The notes under the pieces are model-generated. The model was not told the origin of the DNA. It was given only the letters and a program-made list of their open reading frames with translations, and did not search any database. Positions 15,371-32,810 of a stretch of DNA of 36,430 bases are shown here, piece by piece (positions within the stretch are counted from its first letter, which is position 1; each line of letters opens with the position of its first letter). Made by a program: the position numbers and the translations under genes. The DNA is from Gammaproteobacteria bacterium (lineage in GTDB: Bacteria; Pseudomonadota; Gammaproteobacteria; Steroidobacterales; GCA-2729495): NCBI GenBank assembly GCA_016874095.1, contig VGVH01000002.1, positions 1 to 36,430 on the forward strand. The letters are read 5' to 3'.

Positions 15371-15465
15371 GGCAGGGCGGCTGAACGCCGTAGCGGGGGT
15401 ATCCCGACCGAGTAAGACTTCCCCGAGGGAGGGTTACCTCCGGTACGGCGTTCAGCCGCCCTGCC
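15371..15465 (-). repeat. Hairpin element 1: 35-nt arms, 25-nt conserved loop
   Basis: Arms 15371-15405 and 15431-15465 pair with 22 perfect outer base pairs (15371-15392 with 15444-15465) and an inner part with two mismatches and one G-U. The 25-nt loop (15406-15430), read on the minus strand, has core GGGGAAGTCTTACTC. The outer arm nearest the glycosyltransferase contains that gene's stop codon and last codons. No T run follows, so it is not an ordinary terminator. It shares its architecture and loop with the element at 18300-18394, although the stems are unrelated. Confidence 0.85.
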
Positions 15466-16402
15466 CTTGGCCGATTCGTTCGTCGATGAAGTAGCGGGGG
15501 CGGTGCTTCACTTCGAGATACACGCGCGCGAGGTATTCGCCGACCACGCCGATACACAGCAGCTGCATGCCGCCGAGGAAGTACATCGGGATCACGGTCG
15601 AGGCCCAGCCTGGAACGGCACTGTCGGTGCCGAAGCGGATCCATAGCACCCATGCAGTCATGAACACACTCGCGAGGACCGCGAGCGCACCGACGGCCGT
15701 GGTGGCGCGCAGCGGTGCCGCCGAGAACGAAGTCACGCCGTCGAGCGCCAGCGCCAGCATCCGCCGCAGCGGGTACTTCGACTCCCCGGCGCGGCGGGCA
15801 CTGCGCTCGTAGTCAACGGTGGCGGTGCGAAAGCCCAGCTGGGTCACGAGCCCGCGCAGGAAGAGATTCGTCTCGCGGTACTCGGCGAGGCAGTCGAGCG
15901 CGCGGCGGCTCAGCAGGCGGAAATCCCCATGATGCGGCACCAGCGCGACACCGATCCGGTTCATGGCCCGGTAGAAGAGCCCGGCGGTCAGGCGCTTGAA
16001 GACCGTGTCGCCGTCGCGCTTCGCGCGTACGCCGTAGACGATGTCGCAGCCGGCGCGGCAATGTTCGACCATCGTCGGCATCGCGCCGATGTTGTCCTGC
16101 AGGTCGGCGTCGATGCTGATGGCCGCGTCGGCACGGCTCTCCAGGAGGCCCGCGAGCAGCGCGACCTGGTGGCCCATGTTGCGCGACAGCCGGATGCCGG
16201 CGACGCGCGGATCGGCCGCCGCGAGCGTGCGAATCAGGCGCCAGGTGTCGTCGCAACTGCCATCGTCCACGAACAGGATGCGACTGCCGCCTGCGACCTG
16301 CCCCGCTGCCGTCATCGATGACAGGAGATCGATCAGCCGGCGCGCCGAATCCGGCAGCACCGCCTCCTCGTTGTAGCAGGGCACGACGATATCGATCCGC
16401 AT
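15452..16402 (-). CDS. GT2 family glycosyltransferase, polyprenyl-phosphate type
   Basis: A 316-residue GT2 enzyme of the DPM1/GtrB/ArnC kind, which transfers a sugar from a nucleotide donor to a lipid phosphate at the inner membrane. It begins MRIDIVVPCYNEE, with FVDDGSCDDTW for donor binding and ISIDADLQDN carrying the DxD-type metal site. Two C-terminal transmembrane helices (about 235-260 and 270-295) precede VYLEVKHRPRYF, a common ending of the family. The start at 16402 was chosen because it begins the GT-A fold directly; a longer frame runs into murI. It lies 52 nt after murI in the same direction. Its final codons and stop lie inside the arm of hairpin element 1. Confidence 0.88.
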   Translation of the reverse strand: MRIDIVVPCYNEEAVLPDSARRLIDLLSSMTAAGQVAGGSRILFVDDGSCDDTWRLIRTLAAADPRVAGIRLSRNMGHQVALLAGLLESRADAAISIDADLQDNIGAMPTMVEHCRAGCDIVYGVRAKRDGDTVFKRLTAGLFYRAMNRIGVALVPHHGDFRLLSRRALDCLAEYRETNLFLRGLVTQLGFRTATVDYERSARRAGESKYPLRRMLALALDGVTSFSAAPLRATTAVGALAVLASVFMTAWVLWIRFGTDSAVPGWASTVIPMYFLGGMQLLCIGVVGEYLARVYLEVKHRPRYFIDERIGQGQGG

Positions 16403-16454
16403 GTTGCCACCACAATAATCAAGCGCGGGGTCGCGCACCAGCGCGGCGGTGTCT

Positions 16455-17255
16455 TCAGGCAGCGCCGAGGTCGAGCACGGTGACGTCCGCTTCGCGTATC
16501 GCCTCGCCAAGAAAGGCGGCGCCGACCCGCGCGAACCGGCCCGCACCATCAGTGGCTTCGAAACGCACGCTGCCGGGGCCGCTGACGGCCAGTCCCATGG
16601 CAGCCACTTCAGCAGCCGTGGTTGCCGCCGAATCGACGATCCGCACCGCAGGCCCCGCGACGCGCGCGAGCACCTGGGCGAGCACCGGGAAATGGGTACA
16701 GCCGAGCAGGAGCACGTCCGGCGGCGTGGCCACGCCGAGCAACGGCTCGAGGTAGCGGTGGGCGACGCGCTCGGGGATATCGCCGTCGGTCCAGCCCTCC
16801 TCCGCCAGTGCGACGAAGAGCGGGCAGGCGGCCGATGTCACGCTGGCCGCGGGATCGAGCCGACGGATGGCGGCATCGTAGGCGCCCGCGCGCACCGTGC
16901 CCTCGGTGGCGATGACGGCGATTCGACCGCTGCGCGTGGCCGCGACCGCCGCGCGGGCTCCGGGCTCGACCACGCCGACAACGGGCAGCGGCGCAAGCCG
17001 CGTGCGCAGGTCCTCGAGCGCAATCGCGGAGGCCGTGTTGCAGGCAACCACCAGGCAGGAAAGCCCCTGCCGCAGGAGGGCATCGGCGGCCTGCCCGGCG
17101 TAGCGGACCACCGAGGCAGCGCTCTTGGTTCCGTACGGCAACCGTGCCGTATCGCCCAGGTAAGTGAAACGCGCGTCCGGCATGGCCTTGCGCAGCGCAC
17201 GCAGCACCGTGAGGCCGCCCACGCCCGAGTCGAACACGCCGATCGCACCGCTCAT
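16455..17255 (-). CDS. murI: Glutamate racemase
   Basis: A 266-residue glutamate racemase that supplies D-glutamate for peptidoglycan. The N-terminal IGVFDSGVGGLTVLRAL contains the conserved Asp9-Ser10. The two catalytic cysteines are Cys72 in ACNTAS and Cys186 in GCTHFP, and LGDTARLPYG is the usual substrate-region motif. Length fits the family. The start was placed at 17255 (MSGAIGVFDSG); upstream codons in the open frame lack homology. It is divergent from the DUF1838 gene with about 158 nt between starts and is followed by the glycosyltransferase. Confidence 0.95.
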   Translation of the reverse strand: MSGAIGVFDSGVGGLTVLRALRKAMPDARFTYLGDTARLPYGTKSAASVVRYAGQAADALLRQGLSCLVVACNTASAIALEDLRTRLAPLPVVGVVEPGARAAVAATRSGRIAVIATEGTVRAGAYDAAIRRLDPAASVTSAACPLFVALAEEGWTDGDIPERVAHRYLEPLLGVATPPDVLLLGCTHFPVLAQVLARVAGPAVRIVDSAATTAAEVAAMGLAVSGPGSVRFEATDGAGRFARVGAAFLGEAIREADVTVLDLGAA

Positions 17256-17413
17256 GCCGGGAGTCCGCAAGCTGCATCGAAGGGGGCGGAAAGGATAATC
17301 GATTCCACCTGCTGGTCGGGCCATTGACCGTGAATTCCGCTAAACTGCCGCCCCGCCGGTCGCATGGCCCGCAGGCATACGAACAACAAACCGCTCTGAC
17401 GAGGAAGTACCCG

Positions 17414-18289
17414 ATGGCGATCATCCCCTTTGAGACGAAGATCGATTTCAATAATCCGCGCTGGAACCGCGACGCCTGGGCGCGCATGCAGGCGGACATG
17501 AACTCCGACAACGAGCGCATCGGCCAGTGCAGCGGGCAGATCATCGCCGTGCGTCCGGGCGAGGCTCTGAAACCCTTCCTCGGCTTCCAGGTTTTCCTGG
17601 CAACACGCCTGCTGCCGCTGCCGGATGGCAACATCCGCCGCGTCAACAAGGAAGTGATCTTCTACACCAACCTGCAGCGCAACGGCCTGCCGGGCGACAT
17701 CATCGACGAATTCAAGAACCCGTTCACCGGCGAGACCAACAAGGTCGTGCACGTGTTCAACGACCCGTTCAACTACACGATCAGCGACTTTCTGATCCTG
17801 GCACCGGAGGACTTCCCCGGTTCCGAGAAGAAAGAGCCGCGCAAGTTCCCCCTGTTGTTCCCCTGGCAGGAACTCGACGCCGAGACAATCGTGCTGTCGA
17901 CCGACATGCACCTGAACTACCCGAACCCGCTGCAGCCGGACAAGTGGAAGCGCGAATCGAGCGGACCGAAGGCGCAGGTCACCGAGATGATGCGTTACTT
18001 CGTCAAGCGCAAGGATCTCGAAAACCCCAATCTGACGGCCGTGCCCTACGTCGGCACCTGGCATCGCATCACGCCCTGGCTGCCGTGGATGCTGATGGGC
18101 CAGACACCGGGCCACTGCATGTACGCCTCGACCATGACTGCCTTCCACACCATCGACAAGTTGCCGAAGCACGTCGTCGAGTTCGCGAAGAAGCACAAGC
18201 CGGACATACTCAAGGCGCCGACCGAGGACTACGGGCCGAGCCACTCGAGCCTCGAGCACTACTCCCGGCAGCAGACGCCGGCCGCCTGA
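17414..18289 (+). CDS. DUF1838 family protein (cytoplasmic)
   Basis: A 291-residue protein of the DUF1838 family, whose biochemical role is unknown. Family-like segments are NKEVIFYTNLQRNGLPGDII, EFKNPFTGETNKVVHVFNDP and YVGTWHRITPWLPWMLMG. The last aligns with SWARISGWQPFMEMG in the paralogue at 19240. No signal peptide is seen, unlike that paralogue. The start ATG at 17414 has GAGGAAG about 8 nt upstream, deciding it over the longer frame from 17324. Hairpin element 2 begins 11 nt after its stop. The genes that follow (flavodoxin-like reductase, exported DUF1838, epoxide-hydrolase-like) suggest a pathway for a small organic compound, which is inference. Confidence 0.85.
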   Translation: MAIIPFETKIDFNNPRWNRDAWARMQADMNSDNERIGQCSGQIIAVRPGEALKPFLGFQVFLATRLLPLPDGNIRRVNKEVIFYTNLQRNGLPGDIIDEFKNPFTGETNKVVHVFNDPFNYTISDFLILAPEDFPGSEKKEPRKFPLLFPWQELDAETIVLSTDMHLNYPNPLQPDKWKRESSGPKAQVTEMMRYFVKRKDLENPNLTAVPYVGTWHRITPWLPWMLMGQTPGHCMYASTMTAFHTIDKLPKHVVEFAKKHKPDILKAPTEDYGPSHSSLEHYSRQQTPAA

Positions 18290-18299
18290 CGCTTTGGCG

Positions 18300-18394
18300 C
18301 GTCAGGATGGCACGCGCGGCCCGGAAGCCCTTCCTCGGTCGGGGAAGTCTTACTCCCTCGGAAGGGCTTCCGGGCCGCGCGTGCCATCCTGACG
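18300..18394 (+). repeat. Hairpin element 2: perfect 35-bp stem, 25-nt conserved loop
   Basis: Arms 18300-18334 and 18360-18394 are perfectly complementary over all 35 positions. The 25-nt loop (18335-18359) has core GGGGAAGTCTTACTC. Compared with the minus-strand loop of element 1, the loops differ only at positions 3-4 (GG here, CC there) and 22-23 (CC here, GG there), which would pair with each other. No T run follows the stem. It lies between two co-directional genes, 11 nt after the DUF1838 stop. Confidence 0.9.
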
Positions 18395-32773: not shown

Positions 32774-32810
32774 AAAAGGCCCCGGCTGCCTGGCAGCCGG
32801 GGCCTTTTTT
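32774..32810. terminator. Intrinsic terminator between the broken OmpA gene and pilE
   Basis: AAAAGGCCCCGGCTG pairs with CAGCCGGGGCCTTTT around a short CCTGG loop, with T residues to 32810 and A residues on the left arm. It lies between convergent genes and can work in both directions. Confidence 0.9.

Follow-up and report, generated by a model that had tools for sequence, protein, structure and literature searches.

The stretch of DNA analysed here, hereafter the window, comprises 36,430 nucleotides of a Gammaproteobacteria bacterium of the order Steroidobacterales (NCBI GenBank assembly GCA_016874095.1, contig VGVH01000002.1, positions 1 to 36,430), and it carries two long hairpins, each of which adjoins the end of a gene. 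The first (copy 1; 15371-15465, minus strand) lies downstream of a glycosyltransferase family 2 gene (PF00535; 15452-16549, minus strand). Read in the sense of its tip, copy 1 consists of a 5′ arm at 15431-15465, whose outer 14 nt are also the last 14 of the glycosyltransferase gene, a 25-nt tip at 15406-15430 with a 17-nt conserved core at 15410-15426, and a 3′ arm at 15371-15405; the 35-nt arms are 91% complementary. The second (copy 2; 18300-18394, plus strand) begins 10 nt past the stop codon of a gene for a DUF1838 protein (PF08894; 17324-18289, plus strand, with the true start probably downstream of 17324). Its 5′ arm (18300-18334), 25-nt tip (18335-18359, core at 18339-18355) and 3′ arm (18360-18394) follow the same order, and its 35-nt arms are 100% complementary. 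The 3′ arms of both hairpins were found as inverted repeats; that they are the inverted copies is a direction we infer. An inverted-repeat scan thus recovers both hairpins, with 35-nt arms and 25-nt loops, where the original prediction, made from the sequence alone, had placed them. Read in the direction of the upstream genes, the loops agree at 21 of 25 positions, as it had stated, and the exchange of GG/CC for CC/GG that it noticed is, on reading the sequence, a genuine double compensatory change.

The same prediction had reasoned that a core confined to these two sites, or copies elsewhere without complementary flanks, would reduce the common plan to coincidence or to one duplication. The exact core (GGGGAAGTCTTACTC) in fact occurs at 10 sites in the genome (2.80 Mb in 75 contigs), against none for the reversed control, and a looser 19-mer pattern allowing up to three mismatches gives 16 sites against two for its control; long complementary arms flank the core in all 16 copies. 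A match to the three-mismatch pattern at C12:40148 (contigs, loci and genomes are cited by our own C, L and G labels) has no arms and is not a member. A covariance model built from the 16 copies, which it matches by construction (copy 1 at 89.3 bits and copy 2 at 100 bits), found no further site in this genome up to E = 10 among the 150 of 1107 first-look candidates scored, and it also matched two of the 16 copies on the opposite strand.

The alignment of the 16 copies spans 95 columns without a gap. Its covariation score is 1.045, compared with 0.21 for shuffled and 0.15-0.20 for slid partners, and 90.1% of cells are paired as opposed to 48%; together with the reversed-pattern control (10 sites against none), these covariation controls exclude a chance origin. 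Over the full arms, 560 of 580 pairs are Watson-Crick, two are G-T and 18 are mismatched, a DNA-like pattern of pairing. A-C oppositions outnumber G-T pairs by 10 to 2 (p = 0.04). On the opposite strand, which is purine-rich, the A-C oppositions would be G-T wobbles, a weak hint that it is this strand that folds.

The exact equality of the 35-25-35 plan, which had been read as design, proved coincidental, because arms range from 26 to 58 nt across the 16 copies; the unpaired centre measures 17, 23 or 25 nt, or 43 nt in one decayed copy. The constant feature is the 17-nt core, flanked by bases that pair symmetrically. The consensus core, TCGGGGAASTCTTACTC, shows single-copy exceptions at three positions and either G or C at one, and lies mostly within a direct repeat, CTCGCTCGGG...CTCGCTCGGG. 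The bases beside it pair symmetrically as GC/GC, GG/CC or CC/GG, followed in 11 of the 16 copies by an unpaired TC/TC and then by the arms. Identity between the arms of different copies is 0.467 at positions 5-14 from the tip, compared with 0.288 expected (z 9.7), and falls to about chance at positions 15-24 and 25-34 (z 1.2 and 0.5). The claim that the arms are unrelated therefore stands for the outer arm and fails for the innermost 6-10 or so bases, which share a consensus: tip and inner arm are common to the copies, and the outer arms are private to each. BLAST searches of the same genome with four stretches that together contain 5 of the 16 copies (30-40 first-look candidates scored) returned no second site for an outer arm; the second sites that did appear were the tips and inner arms of other copies. 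This architecture is firmly established as real, genome-wide and unusual.

All 16 copies overlap a stop codon or lie within 15 nt of one. Open reading frames (ORFs) were called with a crude script based on GC content by frame, which leaves gene ends provisional unless supported by Pfam; for the minus-strand copy in L070, proximity to a stop codon rests on a weak ORF of 70 codons. Pfam-supported neighbours include atpD/atpC, aroK/aroB, prs/rplY and folK, as well as genes for a Rieske-like protein, a T2SSE-family ATPase and a carbon-nitrogen hydrolase, among others. The copy between atpD and atpC is antisense and sits inside the operon. This spacer appears to be a hot spot in the genus (L289-L298), in that its palindromes differ by species and it is short in other members. 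Relative to the decisive gene end, the tip is sense in 8 of 11 cases and antisense in 3 (binomial p = 0.23), where the nearest gene end was used in two convergent pairs and five convergent cases were excluded. Wherever an element overlaps a gene 3′ end by at least 5 nt, the overlapping part is the 5′ arm (4 of 4 copies; 14, 19, 5 and 27 nt), and in three copies the 3′ arm reaches 3-4 nt into a gene end. The tally omits overlaps with ORF starts (L060, L063), which are uncertain.

Other palindromes were surveyed in 436 kb of sequence, consisting of 400 kb of the genome chosen by coordinates together with the window (arms of at least 24 nt, score of at least 15, loop of at most 160 nt). The scan returned palindromes of the repetitive extragenic palindrome (REP) type with conserved ends, a few short or wide-loop ones, the two window copies, and two further fixed-tip families: a second, with tip YGAGGAGTKMRAAAWCCGACGAG (three copies in the scanned DNA and three in the genome), and a third, with tip GAGCCGAGTT..AAAG..GCCGAGGCGAAGG (two copies in the scanned DNA). 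Every palindrome in the sample with arms of at least 24 nt had either a conserved tip or REP-type ends. Tips of the three families share a layout in which a short direct repeat (GAGCGAG, CCGACGAGG or GCCGAG) surrounds an AT-richer spacer of 7-10 nt. Sister species have longer tips of 79-97 nt on the same plan; in G003 (L393, 1262-1398), G007 and G004 (L321/L322) and G008 (L335 and L340), long fixed tips contain GGCAGGATGCC or ACAGGGATGT-like mini-hairpins, and the arms are for the most part dissimilar. Among these sister and other families, tips from unlike sites are 0.61-0.93 identical, mostly above the shuffled maximum (two comparisons are not, at 0.61 against 0.62 and 0.63 against 0.64), and arms score close to the shuffled mean, apart from three comparisons that equal the shuffled maximum (0.45 in two of G003, and 0.73 in one pair of family-2 copies). 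Five GGTGCCGGGTCGCAGCTTCGCAGCTTT palindromes with loops of 2-7 nt also lie within 25 kb on C1 (6115-9235, L359; 28082-30300, L360) and are probably a REPIN array, and the window holds a 17-bp terminator-like palindrome at 32774-32808 (AAAAGGCCCCGGCTGCC..GGCAGCCGGGGCCTTTT).

The family is narrowly distributed. The exact core is absent from 59 other relatives, and the three-mismatch pattern gives 19 matches in nine relatives of the genus against 15 for the control, all 19 without arms; nor do these nine hold the family-2 tip at up to three mismatches. The covariance model, run over 196 genomes of the order with stricter filters and 21 candidates scored per genome, matched in 10, the source genome included, and in none of the nine genus relatives. 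By eye, six of the other nine matching genomes (G047, G060, G091, G113, G129 and G147, from three other families) contain hairpins with the related tip TCGCTCG-variable-CTCGCTC; the matches in G175, G092 and G119 lack the tip by eye and are not members. A wider tip pattern, CCTCGCTCG-N(3-20)-CTCGCTC, occurs in 38 of 398 genomes of the phylum, slightly more often outside the source genome than its reversed control (49 matches against 33). None of the wider-pattern matches tested from outside the order, 30 of the 49 genome stretches and 80 of at least 120 viral ones, has arms, and a pairing score of 8 or more was reached exclusively by stretches from the window's order. The exact core in 12 viral contigs is without arms by eye, as it is in two genome-contig matches. 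Searches of phages and plasmids by blastn with copy 2, and of plasmids with a sister tip, returned no match; the DUF1838 protein had only distant matches among plasmids, and tblastn with the glycosyltransferase next to copy 1 had none in the relatives searched.

We place these elements among the dispersed palindromic repeats, as a variant of them, because related tips occur in the ordinary repeat families of the order; membership in REP/REPIN families, miniature inverted-repeat transposable elements (MITEs), terminators, attC sites and Rfam families fails in each case on at least one tested feature. REPs and REPINs are GTAG- or CGTC-tagged palindromes linked to RAYTs (PMC3733652). The present elements resemble them in being short, dispersed, extragenic palindromes, mostly downstream of genes and presumed mobile, but REPs conserve the stem or the ends, whereas these elements conserve only the tip and inner stem and have an outer stem of their own in each copy. 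Outer positions 15-39 are near chance over the 16 copies, three of which carry the ends of other families, and within 6 nt of the base, on either strand, GTAG occurs in none and CGTC in four of the 16. The conserved terminal inverted repeats of MITEs are likewise absent, the palindrome ends being private to each copy. Intrinsic terminators were rejected: a T run of four or more within 12 nt of either hairpin base is absent from all 16 copies, one of which sits inside the atp operon. Rfam returned no match in the window at the gathering score; at 10 element loci it gave one tRNA and five sub-threshold microRNA look-alikes, and at six further loci a tRNA only, so that, with no match to an element, a known Rfam family is ruled out.

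Integron attC sites have variable stems and lie after stop codons, as here, with boxes conserved at the base and not at the tip. The copies with the fixed tip are, in contrast, scattered, and the R box pair (RYYYAAC / GTTRRRY) is found at the base of none of the 16. Rickettsia palindromic elements are inserted in frame in genes, which recalls the sister-family copy in dprA described below, and are conserved in sequence over their whole length. Hairpins made by template switching (PMC8794818) offer another parallel, in that one arm is a local inverted copy, pairing is near-perfect and, as would be the case here, a single event suffices; the mechanism, as we read it, implies a loop of native local sequence, whereas here the same tip recurs at 16 loci. 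Mitochondrial small inverted repeats and double-hairpin elements of placozoans, sponges and Allomyces are also proliferating hairpins, but the placozoan ones, which are classified by the six stem bases beside the loop (PMC7813641), have short stem cores and 3-nt loops, as opposed to a long conserved tip. Among the matches listed in a search of the open-access literature, none describes palindromes with a conserved loop and variable stems or an inverted target duplication of this kind.

How the outer arms arose has to be judged from orthologous sites. No long palindrome is present in relatives at the site of copy 2 (6 of 6, two of them near-identical), of the copy in L060 (2 of 2), or of sister-family elements in dprA (4 of 4) and after a subtilase gene (family 3; 4 of 4). 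The aroK-aroB spacer is too short for an element in seven of nine relatives and holds a palindrome with a different tip in the other two, which are near-identical. Different-tip palindromes are also present between prs and rplY in G007 and G004, and G008 holds another repeat at the site orthologous to L069. Once in place, arms appear to be retained: between the orthologous long-tip palindromes of the prs-rplY spacers in G007 and G004, 89 of 92 arm bases are the same, as are 159 of 176 tip columns, compared with 448 of 558 columns over the whole spacer. This claim rests on the whole-spacer alignment, since an earlier arm identity of 1.00 was partly built in by choosing excerpts by an eye-read pattern. 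In this pair of elements, then, arms are stably inherited, so that differences between arms suggest separate origins and not fast decay.

The most telling case is a family-2 copy that lies in frame inside dprA (PF02481, PF17782; L371, 4822-5949; C1:245673-245759). The interdomain linker is 41 amino acids there, against 22, 26, 23 and 23 in G007, G008, G002 and G006 by hand count, a gain of 45-57 nt. The tip of this copy measures 25 nt, tip plus one arm 56 nt and the whole element 87 nt; the gain thus seems to fit tip plus one arm better than tip alone or the whole element. The native arm could not be identified from an alignment of the linker. A small hint that the 5′ arm may be native comes from L069, where two codons just inside this arm specify, by eye, the same residues as in the G008 orthologue. 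Linker length in dprA and the overlaps with gene ends favour an arm that would be an inverted copy of adjacent native sequence.

The family thus looks like a dispersed element that was recently mobile, since its tips are nearly identical across 16 copies. We give about even credence to a small mobile hairpin tip whose insertion would place next to it an inverted copy of the neighbouring target DNA. The moving unit would be small, comprising the tip (TCGGGGAASTCTTACTC) and an inner stem of some 6-10 bp. The process might begin at a nick or replication fork beside a gene end, where a growing 3′ end would copy the tip from a template in trans (single-stranded DNA or RNA of the element); the short inner stem would then snap back on the newly made strand, extension would copy that strand, and the growing strand would rejoin the chromosome. 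The product would be native arm, tip and inverted arm, that is, an inverted target duplication, in which one arm is presumably native and the other its copy; the template in trans and the enzyme are speculative. Of the two guesses in the original prediction, the mobile element making its palindrome out of local sequence fits best, and it is supported in part, by restriction to this species among the genus genomes searched, by the private outer arms, by the 436 kb scan and by the lengthening of dprA.

Several observations weigh against this account of the arms. The dprA case stands alone, and 56 nt is not divisible by three. No clean pair of filled and empty sites was found: G008 and G009, which are 99.2-99.7% identical over long aligned blocks, share the two fixed-tip palindromes detected in 280 kb, and the prs-rplY spacer of G002 (L320), which has one arm of the G007 palindrome but not the tip, might represent either an empty site or the outcome of a deletion. 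Orthologous arms can also change in concert, as shown by one symmetric difference between G004 (GGGT..ACCC) and G007 (GGGG..CCCC). Privacy of the arms is less clear in family 2, where arm identity in one pair of copies equals the highest value from 200 shuffles, and in G047, where several copies keep similar arms by eye, the arms travel and the element behaves as an ordinary dispersed palindrome. Finally, three of the 16 copies (L062, and L067 twice) and one family-3 copy carry the ends of other palindromes (GGTGCCGGTGT, GGGACGCC, GGGGACAGTGACC).

The last of these points fits insertion into existing palindromes and leads to the main rival, in which the tip parasitises pre-existing palindromes such as REPINs, entering at the hairpin apex so that the arms are simply those of its host. 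These ends occur in both arms; the two copies in L067 (444-570 and 5006-5146) have GGGACGCC-type REP ends, and the palindrome extends several bases beyond the REP boundary. At atpD-atpC, moreover, G002, G005, G007 and G004 hold a REPIN-like palindrome with the outer ends of the copy studied here and a different interior; a second atpD-atpC locus in G005 lacks it. REPs have been reported as targets of insertion sequences (PMC1525189). No REP-type ends were noticed in the remaining 13 copies, however, all palindromes of the 436 kb sample with arms of at least 24 nt have a conserved tip or REP-type ends, and relatives lack a long palindrome at copy 2, L060, dprA and the family-3 site. We consider this rival unlikely as a general explanation, if still a serious one, and both local inverted copying and insertion into existing palindromes may occur.

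A structured RNA, the second guess of the original prediction, seems improbable. Here the hairpin would be transcribed in a 3′ untranslated region, its loop would bind a protein or small RNA, and the stems would be free to vary as long as they paired. The copies do adjoin stop codons, covariation is strong, most of the decidable cases have the tip in the sense of the neighbouring gene (at the p value given above), and stem-loops are reported to be concentrated at the 3′ ends of genes across many bacteria (PMC1590033). Yet the tip-sense strand shows no excess of G-U pairs, with G-T pairs fewer than A-C oppositions, no Rfam family matched, some copies are antisense, as in the atp operon, and one copy of a sister family lies within coding sequence, in dprA. 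The absence of a match in nine other genomes of the genus also leaves little time for compensatory divergence of the arms. We judge it quite doubtful, too, that an ordinary palindromic repeat moved whole and its arms then diverged fast in concert, through homogenisation by template switching, leaving the tip to look conserved. Template switching is able both to form perfect stems, for which one event is enough, and to keep them perfect (PMC8794818), and the similar-arm copies of G047, the shared inner arm bases and the symmetric change between G004 and G007 are in its favour; on the other side, orthologous sister arms are kept better than their tips, which drift more, and tips that are near-identical in 16 copies point to a recent spread, with outer arms already at chance. 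An artefact of sequencing or assembly (an untrimmed hairpin adapter or fold-back chimera) has the typical shape of native sequence, fixed loop and inverted copy, but it is already disfavoured and hardly credible for copies that keep within 15 nt of stop codons, have tips that differ by family, include an in-frame coding copy and have sister elements common to species.

Transposons usually leave direct target duplications, and dispersed palindromes usually conserve their stems. A new mode of insertion, in which a mobile tip generates its long stems by copying the target beside it in inverted orientation, with several tip families in one bacterial order, is a reading that we hold tentatively, at somewhat short of even confidence. 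If local inverted copying is true, the insertion mode would itself be new, as would an insertion product that conserves the tip alone and has stems made from the target. It would give a natural and repeatable read-out of template switching and would connect the way perfect hairpins originate with extragenic palindromes, and 16 copies in one genome, one of them in the atp operon, would make a tractable case in which to hunt for the machinery.

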